From positions 2,170,001-2,234,000 of the forward strand of contig NZ_CP051006.1 of NCBI RefSeq assembly GCF_014673495.1: a stretch of 64,000 nt of DNA, in the 5' to 3' direction. The translations under genes were made by a program, and so were the position numbers. Below, piece after piece: positions 15,808 to 24,303 of the stretch (position 1 is the stretch's first letter; every line of letters starts with the position of its first letter). The DNA is from Streptomyces griseofuscus. GTDB lineage: Bacteria; Actinomycetota; Actinomycetes; Streptomycetales; Streptomycetaceae. The notes under the pieces were generated by a model. It was not told the origin of the DNA. It worked only from the letters and a program-made list of their open reading frames with translations, and made no database searches.

Positions 15808-15919
15808 GGGGCCATTCTTCTTCAGGCGTCATGCCGGGCGGGGAGGGTCCTCGCGATGTGGGACGCGCGCCGGTCGTACGCCGGTCGCACGCTGTAGGAC
15901 GTGCATTCCGGGGCGCGCG

Positions 15920-15949
15920 TTGATCGGGACGCGGGCGGCTTCGTAGGGT
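15920..15949 (+). promoter_or_regulatory. HrdB-like promoter for the peptidyl-tRNA hydrolase gene
   Basis: TTGATC at 15920-15925 and TAGGGT at 15944-15949 are separated by 18 bases. The GTG start follows eight bases after the -10 box, so the transcript is probably leaderless. This is the best-formed -35/-10 pair among the leaderless genes here. Confidence 0.55.
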
Positions 15950-15957
15950 GGCCCCTC

Positions 15958-16662
15958 GTGAGCGATGTTCCGATCCCCGCCGAGAGCCCCCTTCCGTCCC
16001 CGCGCGACGAGGCCCCGCAGTACGTGCTGCCCCTCGTCGTCCGCCTCGAACGCGATGCGCCGCCCGCCCGCACCGACGCCCTGGAGACGTCCGCGCGGGC
16101 GGTTCTGACGCTGCTCGGCGACGAACGGGCCCTCGGCGAGGGTGAGTGGGCCGAGGCCGTACGGAACTGGGAGGACGCCCGGATCCGCAAGGTGGTCCGG
16201 CGGGCCCGGGGCGCGGAGTGGCGGCGCGCCGGGACGCTGCCCGGGATCACGGTGACCGGCAGATCCGCGGAGGTACGGGTCTTCCCGCCGATCCCTCTGG
16301 ACGGCTGGCCCAAGGACCTGGCCAAGCTCCAGGTCTCCGGCACCGAACTGGCCGACCCCGAGCCCCCGTCCGACCCCGACCGCACCGCCCCCGTCCTGTG
16401 GCTCAACCCGGACCTCGCGATGTCCGCGGGCAAGACCATGGCCCAGACCGGCCACGCCGCCCAACTCGCCTGGTGGGCCCTGCCCGACACGGCCCGCACC
16501 GCCTGGCGCGCCGCCGGCTACCCCCTCTCCGTCCGCACCGCCACCCCCGCCGAATGGACCCGCCTCACCCACAGCGGACTGCCGCTGGTCCGCGACGCCG
16601 GTTTCACGGAGATCGCTCCAGGTTCGTGCACGGTGGTGGCGGATCATCCGGCGTTGCGCTGA
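15958..16662 (+). CDS. Pth2-type peptidyl-tRNA hydrolase family protein
   Basis: The 234-residue protein has a C-terminal half that matches the Pth2 fold: the strand-helix LWLNPDLAMSAGKTMAQTGHAAQLAWW contains the family's conserved Lys, Gln and His positions, and the tail GLPLVRDAGFTEIAPGSCTVVA ends the fold. The N-terminal approximately 110 residues (YVLPLVVRLERDAPPARTDALE through WEDARIRKVVRRARG) are an actinobacterial extension. Pth2 frees tRNA from stalled peptidyl-tRNA, but this long form may have another role. The GTG at 15958 is set by the promoter spacing; an in-frame GTG at 15901 is possible. Confidence 0.82.
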   Translation: MSDVPIPAESPLPSPRDEAPQYVLPLVVRLERDAPPARTDALETSARAVLTLLGDERALGEGEWAEAVRNWEDARIRKVVRRARGAEWRRAGTLPGITVTGRSAEVRVFPPIPLDGWPKDLAKLQVSGTELADPEPPSDPDRTAPVLWLNPDLAMSAGKTMAQTGHAAQLAWWALPDTARTAWRAAGYPLSVRTATPAEWTRLTHSGLPLVRDAGFTEIAPGSCTVVADHPALR

Positions 16663-16663
16663 C

Positions 16664-17938
16664 ATGGGGACCACGACCGGGTCGTCGAAGGCCGAGGCAC
16701 CGCGGGCCGAGGCGTCCAAGACCGTCGGCACCCCCCTGGAACTCCCCGCGTTCCGGCGGTTCGTGGTGGCGCATCTCATTTCGGTGAGCGGGTCCGCGAT
16801 GGCGCCGCTGGCGCTCGCGTACGCGGTGATCGAGGGGGGCGGCGGGGCCGGGTCACTGGGGGTCGTGCTCGCGGTGAACACCGTCCCCACGATCCTGTTC
16901 CTGCTCATGGGGGGCCTGTTCGCGGATCGTTGGTCGCGCAGCCGGATCCTGTTCGTGGGGAATCTGGTGGCGGCGGGCGCGCAGGGGGTACTGGCCGGCA
17001 CCGTGGCCACGGGTCATGCGACGACGGTGTCGATCGCGGCGTGCGGTTTCGTGTCGGGGACGGCGGCGTCGTTCATCGTGCCGGCCACCCAGGGTGCCGT
17101 CGCGCAGATCGTCCCCGCGGAACACCTCCAGCAGGCCAACGCGCTACTCAGGCTGCCGAGCAACGCGGTGAAGGTGCTGGGCCCGGTCGTCGGCGGCTTC
17201 GTCGTCGCGCTGAGCGGCGCGGCCTGGGCGCTGGCCTGGGACGCCTGCACGTTCGCCGTGGCGGCCGTCCTGCTGCTGGGCCTGCGCCTGGCCGCACCGC
17301 CCGGCTCGGCCGGCGGTGTCCTGGCCGACCTGCGGGCCGGCTGGACGGGGTTTTGGTCGCGTACCTGGCTGTGGACCTACACCGCCGCCGGAACCGTCCT
17401 CGTCGCCGCGTGGCTGGCCGGCTTCCAGCTGCTCGGCCCGCTCGTCGCCGCCCGCCGGTACGCCGGGGCACGCGACTGGGGCCTGGTCCAGGCGGCCTTC
17501 TCCTGCGGGCTGCTGGCGGGGACCCTGGTGTGTCTGCGCTGGAAGCCGTACCGGCTGCTCGCGGTCGCGGTCGTCGCGGGCGGCGGGCTCGCGCTGCCGC
17601 CGGCGGCCATGGCCTGGGGCCTGCCGCTGCCGCTCGTCCTCGTGGCCGCCTTCCTTGCGGGGGTCGGGCTCGATGTCGCGATCGTCGCCTGGACCACCGC
17701 GTTCCAGCAGCATGTGCCCGCGGCGGAGCAGGGCCGTATGAGCGCGTTCAACGGTGTCGGCGAACGGCTCGCCATCCCCCTCGGCTATCTCATCACCGCC
17801 CTCGCGGTGCACGCGTGGAGCAGCCAGGGCGTGCTCCTGGCCTGCGCCGCGCTGATCGTCGCGGCGACCGTGCTCAACCTCTGCGTCCCGGATCTGCACC
17901 GCGTCAACCGCGTCCGTCGGGAAGCCGACCCGGCCTGA
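16664..17938 (+). CDS. MFS transporter
   Basis: The 424-residue membrane protein has about eleven to twelve hydrophobic segments. The motif-A-like loop is GGLFADRWSRSRIL (about residues 84-97), and the layout fits MFS_3 (enterobactin exporter-like) transporters. The hydrophilic N-terminus is Ala/Glu/Lys-rich and lacks a signal. The ATG lies one base after the stop of the Pth2-type gene, so the two may be co-transcribed. Substrate unknown; efflux of a small hydrophobic compound is most likely from the subfamily. Confidence 0.88.
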   Translation: MGTTTGSSKAEAPRAEASKTVGTPLELPAFRRFVVAHLISVSGSAMAPLALAYAVIEGGGGAGSLGVVLAVNTVPTILFLLMGGLFADRWSRSRILFVGNLVAAGAQGVLAGTVATGHATTVSIAACGFVSGTAASFIVPATQGAVAQIVPAEHLQQANALLRLPSNAVKVLGPVVGGFVVALSGAAWALAWDACTFAVAAVLLLGLRLAAPPGSAGGVLADLRAGWTGFWSRTWLWTYTAAGTVLVAAWLAGFQLLGPLVAARRYAGARDWGLVQAAFSCGLLAGTLVCLRWKPYRLLAVAVVAGGGLALPPAAMAWGLPLPLVLVAAFLAGVGLDVAIVAWTTAFQQHVPAAEQGRMSAFNGVGERLAIPLGYLITALAVHAWSSQGVLLACAALIVAATVLNLCVPDLHRVNRVRREADPA

Positions 17939-18012: not shown

Positions 18013-18110
18013 CTCAAATGTTGCTCTGAAGGCGGCCGGGAGGGGGTTCGGGGCGGGCCGCCGGGGTCATGTACGACGCGTACGCCGGGGGGCGAGGAGG
18101 GGGACAGGTC

Positions 18111-19436
18111 ATGGGGAGACTGGGGACGGGGATCGGCTGGCGGCCGGAGATCGCCGAGGCCGTGGAGCGGATGCCCGGGATCGACTGGGTGGAGGTGGTG
18201 GCGGAGAACTTCTGCCCCGGCCATCTCCCCGAGTCGCTGGAGCGGTTGCGGGCGCGCGGGGTGACCGTGGTGCCGCACGGTGTCTCCCTCGGGCTCGGCG
18301 GCGCGCAGCGACCGGACGCCGGCCGGCTCACGGCACTCGCCGAACGCGCTCAGGCGCTCGGGTCGCCGCTGGTCACCGAGCACATCGCGTTCGTCCGGGC
18401 GGGTGGCACGCTCACCGCGTCGCCGCTGCTGGAGGCGGGCCATCTGCTGCCCGTGCCACGCACCCGGGACGCGCTCGACGTGCTCTGTGAGAACGTGCGC
18501 ATCGCCCAGGACGCGCTGCCGGTGCCGCTCGCCGTGGAGAACATCGCCGCGCTGTTCTCCTGGCCGGACGAGGAGCTGACCGAGGGGCAGTTCCTGTACG
18601 AGCTGGCCGAGCGGACCGGCGTACGGCTGCTGATCGACGTGGCCAACCTGCACACCAACCACGTCAACCGCGGCGAGGACCCGGCCGAGGCGCTGGCCGG
18701 GCTGCCGCTGGAGGCGATCGCCTACGTCCATGTCGCGGGCGGCGTCGAGCGCGACGGCGTGTGGCACGACAGCCACGCGCACCCGGTGCCGGACGCGGTG
18801 CTCGGCATCCTGGCCGACCTCGCCGCCCGGGCCGCCCCGCCCGGCGTCCTGCTGGAACGCGACGAGAACTTCCCCGAACCGGCCGAGCTGGAGCGGGAGT
18901 TGGCGGCGATCCGGAAGGTGGTGGAGGGCGGCCGACGGGAGGACGTGGAGGTGCGGCCCGTCCCGCCGGTGCGCACGGACCCGGGCGACACCGAGGGCGC
19001 CCGTCAGCGGCTCGGGGTCGCGCAGACCGCCGTACTGTCCTCGCTGGTGGCCAGGACGCCCGTGCCCGAGGGGTTCGACCGGGTACGGCTGGGCGTGCAG
19101 GCGCGGGCGCTCGCGGCGAAGCGGGCGGACGTGGTGGCGAAGGTGGCGCCCGAGCTGCCGGTGCTGCTGGGGGCGTCGTACCGGGAGGCGTTCCTGGAGT
19201 ACGCGCGGGCACGGCCGATGCGTGGCGGGTACCGGCGGGACGCGCTGGACTTCGCCGGGTTCCTGCTGGACGGAGAGCGGACGGACCTCCCGAGGCGGGA
19301 GCTGCGGGAGTGGTGGCTGGACCGCTCCGGCCCGGCGCCACGCGGGCGGGTGGCGCGGGCGGCGCGGAGGGTGCTGCCGGGGCGCGCCCGAAGCACCGCC
19401 CGTACGCGCCTGAGGCACCCCGTCCGCATCGCCTGA
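18111..19436 (+). CDS. DUF692 (MNIO) family iron oxidase fused to a C-terminal partner-like domain
   Basis: MNIO enzymes (MbnB, TglH and relatives) use two or three iron ions to modify cysteine or other residues in peptides. Residues 1-265 form the TIM-barrel, with candidate metal residues His56, Glu90/His91, Glu143/Asn144, Asp176, Asn179, His184, His207, Asp220, His222, His224 and Glu249, all in the expected motifs ([36 protein letters not shown]). Residues about 296-390 form a separate helical domain ([46 protein letters not shown]) resembling the partner proteins usually encoded separately. The tail is Arg-rich. The ATG at 18111 has GGAGGGGG nine bases upstream. I recall this as the SCO6045-like architecture. 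No Cys-rich precursor gene is evident upstream. Confidence 0.87.
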
Positions 19437-19500
19437 AGCGCGCCGTCCGCATGTGAAAATTCCTGGCGGCCGCCCCCTCCGCTGACATACAAAGCACCTC

Positions 19501-20286
19501 ATGTTCTGGCTCCTCCTCCTGCTCCTCGCCTGGGCGTTCACCGGCACGGCCTGCGTTCGTCTCTGTCTCGCGGCGATGCGCGCCGCGGCCACGGACCCGG
19601 GCCCGGACCCCGGAGGAGTGGTCGAAGACCATGATCTGACCCTGTACGAGGCCGCGTTCCTGTCCGGCGGACCCCAGCGCGTCGCCGATGTCACCCTCCT
19701 GTCGATGGCCCGCCAGCGGCGCCTGCACCTCGCCCACACCGGCTGGGCCACCGTCGTCGACCCGCTCGGCCGGGACGAGATCGAGCGGTCCGTCATAGGG
19801 GCGATCGGCCCCGAGGGCCAGTCCCGCATCGCGCCTGTGCGGACCCGCGCCGCCCACACCGACGCCGTCCGGCGCCTCGCCGACCGCCTCGTGCGCAGTG
19901 GCCTCGCCGTCCCGGACGCCGCGGGCCCCACCATCGGCGCGGCCGTGCGCCAGGTCCGCGCCGCCGCGCTCGCCGTGGCGACCCTCGCCGTCGCCGCGCT
20001 GCTGATACCGATCCAGGCCGACACCTCACGGCTGATGGTCGGCCTGTGGTTCCTGCTGCCGTTCACGCTGTCGCTGAGCTGTCTGGCCATCGCCCGCTTC
20101 GAGGTGCACCCGTACTCGCCATGGGCCTCCCCCGCCGGGCAGCGCGTGCTGGGCGCGCTGCTGCGGCGCCGCCCCGGTGACGAGCCGTCGTTCCTCACCT
20201 CCGTCGCGCTGCGCGGCATCCGCGCGATCGGCGAACCGGAGCTGCGCGCGGCCTTCACCCACCGCGACGCGCCACACCGGGAGTAG
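19501..20286 (+). CDS. TIGR04222-like membrane protein
   Basis: The 261-residue protein begins with a hydrophobic segment (FWLLLLLLAWAFTGTACVRLCLAAM). A soluble region with the pattern DLTLYEAAFLSGGPQRVADVTLLSMARQRRLHL, typical of the TIGR04222 domain, follows. Two adjacent membrane helices lie near residues 160-200, then a C-terminal arm. In many family members the domain is followed by a low-complexity Gly/Cys-rich tail; here the protein stops at HRDAPHRE with no Cys-rich tail. It follows the MNIO enzyme by 64 bases on the same strand, and the pairing suggests a joint function. Confidence 0.75.
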   Translation: MFWLLLLLLAWAFTGTACVRLCLAAMRAAATDPGPDPGGVVEDHDLTLYEAAFLSGGPQRVADVTLLSMARQRRLHLAHTGWATVVDPLGRDEIERSVIGAIGPEGQSRIAPVRTRAAHTDAVRRLADRLVRSGLAVPDAAGPTIGAAVRQVRAAALAVATLAVAALLIPIQADTSRLMVGLWFLLPFTLSLSCLAIARFEVHPYSPWASPAGQRVLGALLRRRPGDEPSFLTSVALRGIRAIGEPELRAAFTHRDAPHRE

Positions 20287-20394: not shown

Positions 20395-22029
20395 ATGAAA
20401 GCCGTCGCCCTCTGCTCGGCCGCCGCCTCGCTGCTGCTGACCGCCCTGGCCACCGCCCCGGTGGACGCCACGCCGAGCATCCCCGCCCCGCCGAGCCTCC
20501 CCGGTGTGCCGTTCCCCTCCGGCGCCGCCGAACTCCGCGGCACCATCGTCGCCGCCCTCCGCGCCCGCGCCACCGGCCTGCGCTACGGCACCTGTGACCC
20601 CGCCGAGGTGCCGCCGGTCGCCCACTCCCCCGCCGGACTGCGCTGCGGCACCGTCTCCGTGCCCCTCGACTACGCCCACCCCGACGGCAAGCAGATCGCA
20701 CTCACCGTCAGCCGGACCCCCGCCACCGGGAAGGACGGCAAGCGGACGGTCCCCCGGCAGGGCGCCCTCGTCTACGACCCCGGCGGCCCCGGCGCCTCCG
20801 GCATGTACTTCGCGCTGGCCGGCACCCTGCCCGTCTGGAAGCGGATCGCCGCCGCGTACGACCTGGTCGGCTACGCCCCGCGCGGGGTGGGCCGCTCCGC
20901 GCCGCTGTCCTGCGAGGACCCGAAGCAGTTCGGCAAGGCGCCCACCCCGGCTTCGACGCGGCCCTCGGAGTCGTACAAACGCGAGCGCGTGGCGGAGGCG
21001 AAGGCGTACGCCCGCGGCTGCGCCCGGCGTTCGGGCCCCGGGCTGCGCTTCTACAACTCCCTGAACAACGCGCGGGACCTGGACGTCCTGCGGGCCGCGC
21101 TGGGCGAGGACCGGCTGACGTTCCTGGGCGCGTCGTACGGCACGTACTACGGCTCGCTGTACGCGGCGATGTTCCCCTCCCATGTGCGCCGGATGGTGCT
21201 GGACGCGGCGGTGAACCCGGATCCGGGGCAGATCTGGTACCGCGGCAACCTCGACCAGTCGGCCGCGTTCGAGAAGCGCTGGGCGGACGTGCGGGACTGG
21301 ATCGCCCGGCACGACGCCGTGTACCGGCTCGGCGCCACGCCACAGAAGGTGCAGGGGAGTTACGACACCGCCGCCGCGCGGCTCGCCCTCGGACCGGCGG
21401 GCGGGAAGGTCGGGCCGGGCCAGTTGCAGAACGCGTTCCTGACGGCCGGGTACTACGACTCCGCCTGGCCGAGCCGGGCCGCCGCCCTCTCCGCCTATCT
21501 GCACGGCGACCCGAAACCGCTGGTCGCACTGGCCGCGCCGGACCCCGCGTCGGCGGCCGCGGCGGAGAACGGCACCGCCGTGTACACGGCCGTCGAGTGC
21601 AATGACGCGCCTTGGCCGACGAGTTGGGCGGTGTGGGACCGGGACAACACCCGGCTGGCCCGCATCGCGCCCTTCGAGACCTGGGACAACGCGTGGATGA
21701 ACCTGCCCTGCGCGTACTGGCCCGCGCCCCGGCAGCGGCCCCTGGACGTCCGCACCGCGCCCGGCGCGCTGCCCCCGGTGCTGATCCTGGCGGCCGAACG
21801 GGACGCGGCCGCGCCGTACTCGGGGGCCCTGGAGATGAACCGGCGGCTGGCCGGCTCCCTGCTGGTGACCGAGCGCGGCGCGGGCACGCACGGCATCGGC
21901 GGCGGCCCCAACAAATGCGTCAACGCCTATATGGACGACTATCTGCTGACGGGCCGCCTCCCGGTGCGGAACGCGTCCTGCGCGCCCCGCGCCGAACCCG
22001 TCCCCGGCCGGGGACGGACGGCGGGCTGA
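20395..22029 (+). CDS. Secreted alpha/beta hydrolase, tripeptidyl-aminopeptidase (TAP) family
   Basis: The 544-residue secreted protein has a signal peptide (KAVALCSAAASLLLTALATAPVDA). The hydrolase core contains oxyanion-loop motif YDPGGPGASG, nucleophile elbow GASYGTYYG, and a C-terminal segment VLILAAERDAAAPYSGA with the acid residue, followed by AGTHGIGGG with the catalytic His. Members trim tripeptides from protein N-termini outside the cell. Paired cysteines (TCDP, LRCGT, CNDAP, LPCAYW, NKCV) fit disulfides of an exported enzyme. The ATG follows AGGGATGCTGG, a usable ribosome site. It converges on hemQ with three bases between. Confidence 0.9.
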   Translation: MKAVALCSAAASLLLTALATAPVDATPSIPAPPSLPGVPFPSGAAELRGTIVAALRARATGLRYGTCDPAEVPPVAHSPAGLRCGTVSVPLDYAHPDGKQIALTVSRTPATGKDGKRTVPRQGALVYDPGGPGASGMYFALAGTLPVWKRIAAAYDLVGYAPRGVGRSAPLSCEDPKQFGKAPTPASTRPSESYKRERVAEAKAYARGCARRSGPGLRFYNSLNNARDLDVLRAALGEDRLTFLGASYGTYYGSLYAAMFPSHVRRMVLDAAVNPDPGQIWYRGNLDQSAAFEKRWADVRDWIARHDAVYRLGATPQKVQGSYDTAAARLALGPAGGKVGPGQLQNAFLTAGYYDSAWPSRAAALSAYLHGDPKPLVALAAPDPASAAAAENGTAVYTAVECNDAPWPTSWAVWDRDNTRLARIAPFETWDNAWMNLPCAYWPAPRQRPLDVRTAPGALPPVLILAAERDAAAPYSGALEMNRRLAGSLLVTERGAGTHGIGGGPNKCVNAYMDDYLLTGRLPVRNASCAPRAEPVPGRGRTAG

Positions 22030-22032
22030 GCC

Positions 22033-22764
22033 TTACGCCAGCCCCGCCACCAGGTCCGCCACGTCCTTGCGGCGGCCCGTGTAGAACGGGACCTCCTCGC
22101 GGACGTGCATCCGGGCCTCGGAGCCGCGCAGATGGCGCATGAGGTCGACGATGCGGTACAGGTCGTTCGCCTCGAAGGCGAGGATCCACTCGTAGTCGCC
22201 CAGCGAGAACGAGGCGACCGTGTTGGCGCGCACGTCCGGGTAACCGCGCGCCATCTTGCCGTGGTCGGCGAGCATCCGGCGGCGGTCCTCGTCGGGCAGC
22301 AGGTACCAGTCGTACGAGCGCACGAAGGGGTAGACGCTCACATAGTCGCGGGGCGTCTCGTCGGCGAGGAACGCCGGGATGTGCGAGCGGTTGAACTCGG
22401 CCGGGCGGTGCAGCGCCATGTTGGACCACACCGGCTCCAGCGTGCGGCCCAGCTTGGTGCGGCGGAAGAGGCTGTACGCCTCCTGGAGCTGGTCGCTGGT
22501 CTCCGCGTGCCACCAGATCATCACGTCGGCGTCGGCCCGCATACCGGACAGGTCGTACGTGCCGCGGATCGTCACGTCCTTGGCGGCGAGCTGGTCGAAC
22601 AGCTCCTGGACCTCGTCGGCGTAGCCCGCGCGGTCGGCCGGCAGCACGTCCTTCAGCTTGAAGACCGACCACAGGGTGTAGCGGATGACATCGTTCAGGT
22701 CCTTGGCCAGCTTGCCCTTGTTGGGGATCCTGCCGGACTCGGTGGTGGGGGCGTCGTCACTCAT
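22033..22764 (-). CDS. hemQ: Coproheme decarboxylase HemQ (ChdC), chlorite-dismutase-like fold
   Basis: HemQ removes two carboxylates from coproheme III with peroxide, giving heme b in the coproporphyrin-dependent pathway of Gram-positive bacteria. The 243-residue cytosolic protein has the actinobacterial motifs [14 protein letters not shown] (active-site Tyr region), [18 protein letters not shown] with the proximal heme His, and [17 protein letters not shown]. It lacks a signal peptide, unlike respiratory chlorite dismutases. The stop of hemG lies only about five bases upstream, so hemG-hemQ form an operon on the minus strand. Confidence 0.94.
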
Positions 22765-22769
22765 GGTTC

Positions 22770-24224
22770 CTATTCTCCTGCTCCGCCGTGAAGGCTCTGC
22801 ACCGGGTGGGCCGTCAGCTCCTCGACCCCGCGCAGATCACCGGACAGCTGATCGACGGCCGCGTTCGCGCTCGCGACACACGCGGGGATGCCCACGCCGT
22901 CGTACTGCGCGCCGCAGACCGCGAGGCCCGGAAGCTTGGCGATGTGCCCGCGGATCCGGGCCACCCGGCCGTGGTGCCCGACCGGGTACTGCGGCAGTCC
23001 GTCGGTCCAGCGGGTGACCCGGGTCTCGACCGGCGCGGCCTCGATGCCGACGGCCTCGCAAAGGTCGTGCCGGGAGACCTCCACCAGGTCGGCGTCGTCC
23101 CGGCCGAGGACCGCCGTCTCGCCGTACCGCCCCACCGAGGTGCGCAGCACGACCGTGTCCGGGTCCTGCTCGGCGATCCAGCCCCACTTCTGGGAGGCGA
23201 ACGTGGCGGCCTTGATGGTGCGTCCGTCGAACGGCGGCACCAGGAAGCCGCTGCCCTCGGGCAGGGACACCTCGGCGCGCCGGTAGGCGAGGGTGATCAG
23301 GGCCATCGAGGCGTACTCGACGGCGGCCAGTTCGGCGGCGGCCGCCGGGGACTCGGGGCGCAGCAGCCGGGCGGCGGCCGGGGCGGGTACGGCGACCACC
23401 ACGGCGTCGGCGTGCAGTTGCCGCCCGGCCGCGGTGATCCGCCAGCCGCCCGAGGGGTCCCGGCGCAGCTCGGTGACGGCTGCCCCGGTGCGGATCTCGC
23501 CGCCGCGCGCCCGGACGGACTCGGCGACCGCGAGCGGCAGGGTGCCCACGCCGCCCTCGATGCCCATGAACACGGGCCCGGTCTGCTGCGCGGCCGCGGC
23601 CCTGGCCTGGATCTCGCGGACGCCCTCGGTCAGGGAGGCGTGCGCGCGGGCGGCCTGGAAGAGCTGGGGGACGGCGGAGCGCATCGAGATGCGGTACGCG
23701 TCGCCCGCGTACACCCCGCCGAGCAGGGGTTCGACGAGGCGGTCCACGACCTCGCGGCCGAGGCGCGCCGCCACGTACTCCCCCACCGCCACGTCGTCGC
23801 CGACCTCGGTGCGGGGCAGGACGGCGTCCTGTTCGATGCGGGCCAGGCCGTCCTCGGACAGGACACCGGCGAGGGCGGCGGCGGTGCCGGGGACGCCCAT
23901 CACATGGCCCTTGGGCATGGGGCGCAGCGCGCCGCGGGTCCAGATCGCGGCGCTCGCGATCGCCGGGGGCCGGAGCCGGCCGTCGAGGCCGACCTCGCGG
24001 GCGAGGGCCACGGCCTCGGGGCGGCGGGCGAGCATCGACTCGGCGCCGAGGTCGACCCGGACGCCCGCGATCTCGCCGGGCAGCAGCTTGCCGCCGACCC
24101 GCTCGGACGCTTCGAGGACCGTCACCCGCGCGCCGCGCTCCAGCAGCCGGTGGGCGGCGGCCAGACCGGCGACACCGGCTCCGATGACGACGGCGTGCCC
24201 CGAACTCGTACCCGTTGCGCTCAT
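22770..24224 (-). CDS. hemG: Coproporphyrinogen/protoporphyrinogen oxidase HemG (HemY/CgoX type)
   Basis: The flavoenzyme oxidises the porphyrinogen ring; in the pathway implied by hemQ the product is coproporphyrin III. The 484-residue protein starts with the FAD Rossmann motif [27 protein letters not shown] and has [22 protein letters not shown], then the late [11 protein letters not shown] and [14 protein letters not shown] motifs that close the FAD site. The ATG at 24224 follows GAGAGTGGGG. An upstream in-frame start at 24248 is less likely. It is transcribed with hemQ. Confidence 0.93.
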
Positions 24225-24303
24225 GGTCCCCACTCTCTCAGACCCCACTGACAGCGCTGATAGGGCCGTAGGTCCCGCGCGCCGCGTCGCGACCCGGACC
24301 CTC

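Follow-up and report, generated by a model that had tools for sequence, protein, structure and literature searches.

The 64,000-nucleotide stretch of Streptomyces griseofuscus DNA analysed here (the window, part of a 9.1-Mb genome) encodes a multinuclear non-heme iron oxidase (MNIO, DUF692) that runs on in the same chain into a putative partner domain and is followed by a membrane protein of the TIGR04222 family. Across the genus, this enzyme exists both as a fusion and as split counterparts, its TIGR04222 neighbours form two paralogues (a Cys-tailed A and a tailless B), A is absent beside the enzyme in the window and in about half of the loci, and the enzyme is conserved where A is absent. 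As an overall explanation we lean, a little beyond an even balance, towards a natural fusion of an MNIO with its partner, whose ancestral substrate would have been the tail of A and which would now act on an unlinked substrate; we infer, and only infer, both the substrate in trans and the chemistry. The initial annotation of this DNA had described an MNIO with an extra C-terminal domain, then a TIGR04222 protein without a Cys tail, and as a whole that observation has held up.

The MNIO open reading frame (ORF) lies on the forward strand and runs from position 18111, or from an alternative start at 18069, to 19436. Its barrel (18111..18923) matches PF05114 with an E value of 3.1e-78, at 263.1 bits against a cut-off of 25, over residues 20-285 of the longer ORF, and its match to TglH, in the structure 8hci, has an E value of 1.6e-19. 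Judged from its sequence, the ORF belongs to the MNIO family and is predicted to carry out iron-dependent oxidation. It scores below the cut-off of every NCBIfam equivalog that it matches (BufB, 181.5 of 310; HvfB, 144.7 of 360; ApyH, 118.3 of 400; ChrH, 44.1 of 600; MbnB, 28.2 of 325). The window genome has a single PF05114 match. In a sample of 150 genomes from the genus, PF05114 was found in 141 (and TIGR04222 in 131), so the locus is not a chance occurrence.

We examined 134 of these 141 genomes, leaving out seven (G028, G073, G081, G097, G111, G116 and G147), in most cases since the MNIO match was a fragment or lay at a contig edge. With the window, the 137 fetched loci made 138, G060 and G037 contributing two each. 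Two of these have no MNIO (L193, L194), in two it is cut by a contig end (L087, L195), and in 14 it has at most 400 residues, including L118 and L141, for which no C-terminal ORF was found, and L188 (G085), whose MNIO frame looks damaged. In the last of these the frame covers PF05114 positions 155-262 only and has a TIGR-A gene behind it, and is possibly decaying or misassembled. Of the 120 loci that remain, the 114 with more than 4 kb downstream form the counting set for fused MNIOs (longer than 400 residues). A search of named genomes yielded 80 retained loci, all from Streptomyces. All trees are quick trees, with SH-aLRT values as their only support. Some Streptomyces also carry an additional MNIO of another subfamily, which scores far higher against PF05114 (L003, L004 and L005; 358-371 bits).

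Nine candidate iron ligands (H56, H91, E143, D176, N179, H207, D220, H222 and E249) are kept in all 114 fused MNIOs of the genus, that of the window included. Of the residues listed in the initial annotation, H56, H91, E143, D176, H207, H222 and H224 are each present in 114 of 114, whereas H184 is kept in only 99; that list lacked N179, D220 and E249. In the two motifs D-x-x-N and D-x-H, the Asp, Asn and His residues align with TglH; the site-3 residues of HvfB are N175, D242 and H244 (PMC13419390), and the mapping of the HvfB motif residues onto those of the window was made in this analysis. Two barrel cysteines, C35 and C126, are likewise invariant or nearly so (114/114 and 113/114).

The remainder of the chain (18924..19436, forward strand) is a predicted helical domain, which the initial annotation had compared to an MNIO partner. 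In 11 loci of the genus the MNIO ends at 277-295 residues and an ORF of its own, immediately downstream, encodes this domain. The start is readable in ten of these separate ORFs, which are 141-210 residues long. Nine of the ten overlap the barrel gene, with an overlap of 8 bases in six cases, an arrangement suggestive of translational coupling. Fused and barrel-only states require four changes among the 99 rows of the first MNIO tree. Outside the genus the domain again occurs as a separate ORF behind the barrel (for example L283, E 6.5e-28, and L289, E 2.3e-20), and in L292, L293, L294 and L299 barrel and domain are matched in one frame. The pairing is conserved across genomes.

Searched alone, the C-terminal 178 residues matched no Pfam family. 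An AlphaFold2 model of the domain, built from 76 sequences, is helical with a mean pLDDT of 76, and a Foldseek search of 350,542 PDB chains with it placed TglI, which is the partner of TglH, at ranks 1 and 2, at E values (0.92 and 1.4) that are not significant on their own. Alignment to TglI with VIA-align gave Z scores of 6.3 and 6.2 (the former with a root-mean-square deviation of 3.4 over 112 residues) against 4.0 for the next row, although a Z of 6.3 is reachable by chance among helical bundles. We give these two weak matches some weight because the initial annotation had named TglI in advance. DUF2063 was absent among the five Pfam families, none of them relevant, matched by any of the 76 domain members (E up to 10, HMMER filters on), which fits the definition of 'PME-type 2' given by Antoine et al. 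(2025; PMC12452194). A sequence profile of the domain run against the PDB returned FixJ and HNF1-alpha (E 0.25 to 0.6), which we took as chance. Gene structure and fold model together support, short of proof, the view that the C-terminal domain behaves like a fused, PME-type-2-like MNIO partner; TglI is its best, if weak, fold match in the PDB.

Directly downstream lies the TIGR04222 membrane protein (19501..20286, forward strand; E 2.1e-44), which covers profile positions 1-227 of 229 at 151.9 bits against a cut-off of 43. It has three cysteines in all, no tail, and hence no tail cysteine. Two kinds of TIGR04222 protein accompany the enzyme in the genus. Paralogue A has a median of 344 residues and ends in a tail of 30% Gly, 29% Ser and 8% Cys, with a median of eight tail cysteines, whereas B, located beyond A, is tailless with a median of 258 residues. 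In a tree of 154 TIGR04222 proteins from which the tails had been removed, the presence or absence of a tail requires two changes, compared with 49.8 in shuffles, so that A and B are paralogues; the window protein stands among the B rows. The initial annotation had taken it to stop before its tail. The tree placement leads us to reject a truncated tail: the protein belongs to the tailless paralogue, and what is missing is the tailed A that often lies directly behind the MNIO. The first membrane helix of the B proteins holds a conserved C-x3-C and the last helix the third Cys; these may form a metal or heme site. A fold search with a model of the window's B protein (pLDDT 81) found no fold at E 0.001 (best E 0.16), and neither the MNIO nor the TIGR04222 protein matched PHROGs.

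A was scored only beside the MNIO, with a bit-score floor of 100, and a locus is called A-less when no A stands there; the scoring excludes L113, with its decayed TIGR pieces, counts L064, whose A-type gene has a shorter tail with 1 Cys, as B without A, and counts L075, whose tail is short and odd (3 Cys), as A. On this basis A is absent in 61 of the 114 loci, the window's included, and present in 53; in 52 of these 53 it lies no more than 150 bases downstream of the MNIO. B occurs in 53 of the 61 loci without A and neither paralogue in eight, in one of which (L191) B is on another contig. In the window only 64 bases (19437..19500) separate the MNIO from B, at the place where relatives carry A, a DUF4142 gene or both, and neither is present there. 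DUF4142 genes (PF13628; for example L088, 6296-7429) follow the MNIO in 38 of the 61 loci without A and 5 of the 53 with it, a comparison uncorrected for kinship, and lie upstream of the MNIO in 34 of 114.

The lack of A extends well beyond this strain. In the MNIO tree the window falls inside a set of 43 rows, all without A (SH-aLRT 98), and all 69 named relatives that have more than 4 kb downstream, the window's nearest kin, lack A. We consider a loss of A in the window lineage likelier than a gain, because MNIO genomes outside the genus generally have tailed proteins and because the A-carrying loci L124 and L125 diverge close to the base of the A-less rows; loss is thus supported, though not proven. 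The genome-wide TIGR04222 search proposed for this strain returned one match, the tailless B (all 73 candidates scored). With 17 candidates scored in each genome, 28 of the 61 A-less genomes, the window's included, show a single TIGR04222 match, namely the B next to the MNIO, and six show no match.

The nine candidate ligands are unchanged in all 61 loci without A, as in all 53 with it. For pairs with a barrel dS of 0.15-1.2 (NG86 method), the median ratio of nonsynonymous to synonymous substitution (dN/dS) in the barrel is 0.149 without A (30 pairs) versus 0.178 with A (26 pairs), and in the C-terminal domain 0.266 versus 0.304. Furthermore, six A-less genomes (G013, G110, G107, G023, G045 and G139; four of them assemblies of 1-3 contigs) keep the fused MNIO with no TIGR04222 match above the cut-off, all candidates having been scored. 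At E up to 1, two of these gave no match and four had a best E between 0.003 and 0.37; the same search also produced matches at this level in 7 of 14 control genomes. Ligands, dN/dS and these six genomes together indicate that the enzyme still has a role when the tail is missing and, in some strains, when no TIGR04222 protein can be recognised at all. Of the substrates that the initial annotation had offered, the membrane protein itself is consequently disfavoured where that protein is B, which leaves a substrate encoded elsewhere as the best reading.

The proposal that TIGR04222 tails are MNIO substrates was made by Antoine et al. (PMC12452194), and it gains support from the way Cys tails go with MNIO genomes outside the genus. 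Within the class but outside the genus, 34 genomes have a TIGR04222 match, and one protein per genome was read from 25 of them. At least three [SG]C[SGA] motifs stand near the C-terminus in 11 of 13 proteins from MNIO genomes versus 1 of 12 from genomes without an MNIO (Fisher p 2e-4, uncorrected for kinship). The sole motif-tailed protein of the latter group (L314) has the start of an MNIO beside it at a contig edge. That the A tail was the ancestral substrate is, from these sequence patterns, supported but not proven.

The same paper puts the tails in the periplasm. We examined the topology of A by a simple hydropathy and charge count. In the 45 A proteins with three predicted helices, the mean count of Lys plus Arg is 3.4 over the 15 residues that follow helix 1, 3.3 ahead of helix 2 and 3.5 past helix 3. 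By comparison, it is 0.8 in the loop of 14 residues that joins helices 2 and 3, and 0 in the two residues preceding helix 1; 16 further A proteins are predicted with four helices and three with two, and the bias is weaker for B. By the positive-inside rule, the soluble domain and tail of A would be cytoplasmic, on the same side as the MNIO, a prediction that speaks against the periplasmic placement.

Taken together, we picture a cytoplasmic iron oxidase fused to its own partner domain, so that both would be made as one chain. Its ancestral substrate would be the Ser/Gly/Cys-rich C-terminal tail of the co-encoded A, whose cysteines might be oxidised with O2 after thiolate binding at the iron site. 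A would then have been lost in the window lineage, leaving the tailless B behind an enzyme that selection may have kept for also, or now, modifying a substrate encoded elsewhere in the genome.

Several points weigh against this picture, beginning with the lack of significance of the TglI fold matches and of a kinship correction in the tail comparison. Two MNIO genomes outside the genus have a TIGR04222 protein without the tail motif (L303, L327), while G102, an assembly of 1,420 contigs with no MNIO detected, has one with three tail cysteines. Counts of changes cannot separate loss from gain of A. Moreover, 25 of the 61 A-less genomes carry further TIGR04222 matches elsewhere. Among 21 such proteins, from 19 of the 25 genomes, one (L360, G077) has three tail Cys motifs, one has two, twelve have one and seven have none (the reading frame of L362 being doubtful), so that a tailed TIGR04222 protein elsewhere in an A-less genome is the exception. 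The cysteines of B are themselves conserved, leaving room for B as a substrate, and no trans substrate was identified in these searches.

A third, unlinked TIGR04222 type, seen in A-less genomes (L364-L380, L331), has about 190-230 residues and ends in a short tail rich in Gly, which usually holds one Cys whose place varies. It is a possible MNIO substrate in some strains, but we rejected it as the trans substrate of the window, as its Cys is unconserved and it was not found in the window genome or in the six genomes without TIGR04222; that search covered 22 genomes with no positive control among them (146 of 270 candidates scored in G000), and its sole match, in G126, was the A gene of that genome. 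A profile of 15 A tails searched in 15 genomes was uninformative, since it missed the A-carrying G115, G065, G005, G126 and G098 and gave one match (G020, E 0.69).

A broader form of the favoured account, to which we give tentative and somewhat less than even credence, is that this near-universal, naturally partner-fused Streptomyces MNIO, persisting with selection undiminished in about half of the loci without the tailed protein, would be a housekeeping oxidase acting in trans on unlinked proteins or peptides, as opposed to a dedicated maturase of ribosomally synthesised and post-translationally modified peptides (RiPPs), with the tails modified in the cytoplasm, contrary to their published placement in the periplasm.

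It is also conceivable, if rather unlikely, that the enzyme has no Cys-peptide substrate in the window lineage and instead targets a small molecule or a residue other than Cys, or serves in regulation by binding a metal or a protein. The failure to find a precursor nearby would fit such a role, as would the presence of hemQ beside the locus in 109 of 114 cases, and MNIOs acting on non-Cys residues are known, an example being the hydroxylation of homocitrulline (PMC13174530). Yet the partner-like domain and the full ligand set are kept, and 53 of the 114 loci have the Cys-tailed A adjacent.

We think it doubtful, and distinctly improbable, that the tailless B is itself the substrate, modified at Cys18 or Cys22 in the first membrane helix or at Cys194 in the third. 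These residues are conserved in 82, 79 and 85 of 89 proteins, respectively. Among B proteins from A-less MNIO loci, 52 of 54 retain Cys22, compared with 0 of 2 from genomes without an MNIO. The same two MNIO-less genomes, near-identical to each other, nevertheless keep B with Cys18 and Cys194, and the six genomes described above keep the fused MNIO with no TIGR04222 protein above the cut-off. The B cysteines are also predicted to sit within membrane helices or at them, where a soluble enzyme would be unlikely to act. As to whether the retention of B depends on A, the MNIO tree offers just three independent pairs.

A short unannotated precursor beside the enzyme would match the common MNIO arrangement (PMC12452194), but it is very improbable here. 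As the initial annotation had remarked, none is visible: among ORFs of 15-120 codons lying at least 60% inside the three intergenic gaps (172, 64 and 108 bases), with ORFs mostly inside known genes outside the search, there is only one, of 17 residues with one Cys, and in several relatives 105 to 200 bases lie between the MNIO match and the PTH2 match upstream of it. Finally, although the window alone shows no more than an absence, we give next to no credence to the lack of A being an assembly artefact or a recent accident with the MNIO a relic on its way out, given that A is absent in 61 of 114 loci, in the set of 43 around the window and in 69 of 69 named relatives, and that the MNIO is under purifying selection.

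The gene block around the enzyme is for the most part a constant feature of Streptomyces chromosomes. Upstream on the forward strand lies a PTH2-domain protein of 253 residues with one Cys (15901..16662; PF01981 E 9.2e-10, residues 165-251), a homologue of which is upstream of the MNIO on the same strand in 94 of 114 loci. It has about 160 extra N-terminal residues and scores 31.6 against a Pth2 equivalog cut-off of 126; with its extension and a score so far below the equivalog cut-offs, it may not be an ordinary peptidyl-tRNA hydrolase. Between it and the MNIO is a major facilitator superfamily (MFS) transporter (16664..17938, forward strand; PF07690 E 1.4e-27), which we rejected as probably not belonging to the system, homologues (E up to 1e-5) being present in 2 of 101 loci, the window included. 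Downstream, a TAP-like alpha/beta hydrolase (20395..22029, forward strand; PF08386 E 5.8e-27) is a conserved neighbour (93 of 114 loci). Beyond the block, on the reverse strand, is the heme synthase HemQ (22033..22764; NF042928, 364 bits against a cut-off of 235), which lies inside the fetched stretch in 109 of 114 loci. With a protoporphyrinogen oxidase gene, hemQ adjoins the block at 22033-24248; this iron enzyme thus sits next to heme genes genus-wide, possibly through synteny only.

The set of PTH2, MNIO and TIGR04222 genes is already known. Cluster II in Table 2 of Antoine et al. (PMC12452194) consists of adjamnio-II (a peptidyl-tRNA hydrolase), an MNIO and a TIGR04222 protein in 13 sequences, with no precursor found. 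The window shares these three gene families, and its PTH2 protein (253 residues, 1 Cys) fits theirs (233-256 residues, 1 Cys) in size and number of cysteines. In contrast to cluster II, the hydrolase of the window matches PF01981, where theirs is PF01195, and an MFS gene separates it from the MNIO. The accessible text of that paper makes no mention of a fused partner in TIGR04222 loci, of A and B paralogues or of a tail-less lineage, and we found no description of a natural MNIO-PME2 fusion or of the paralogues in the DUF692/MNIO and TIGR04222 literature, in a search outside which most subscription papers and all supplements fell. The probable fused partner, the two paralogues and the persistence of the enzyme without A are additions to the published account as far as that text shows. 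Antoine et al. report PME-type 2 genes for 'at least 10%' of TIGR04222 clusters, a share that may be explained in part by the partner usually being fused in Streptomyces.

Among characterised systems, the pearlin enzymes TglH-TglI (8hi7/8hci) give matches to both parts, TglH to the barrel and TglI, as the best but weak match, to the C-terminal domain. However, TglH and TglI are separate chains, the TglI chain has 269 residues against about 170 in the window domain, and no adjacent precursor was found in the window. The oxazolin maturase HvfBC offers another comparison (PMC13419390). In that work the partner HvfC is needed for the active mixed-valent diiron state, and an engineered HvfB-HvfC fusion, with the MNIO N-terminal to its partner as in the window, was more active than the co-expressed pair. 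The Streptomyces protein, by analogy, looks like a natural version of that construct, although its domain has no DUF2063 match in Pfam and its HvfB score is well below the cut-off. The same source describes natural MNIOs with an additional domain, MovX (a fused C-terminal RRE) and ChrH; the extra domain of the window enzyme appears to resemble the helical TglI/DUF2063 part, and the match of the enzyme to the ChrH model is weak.

MNIOs are usually viewed as maturases of a peptide encoded next door, and here a gene found in 141 of 150 Streptomyces genomes persists even where its presumed substrate is missing. This raises the question of what else MNIOs modify, in a genus that is tractable in the laboratory. 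In addition, a natural fusion of enzyme and partner provides a counterpart to the engineered HvfBC and may ease the study of partner-dependent iron chemistry.

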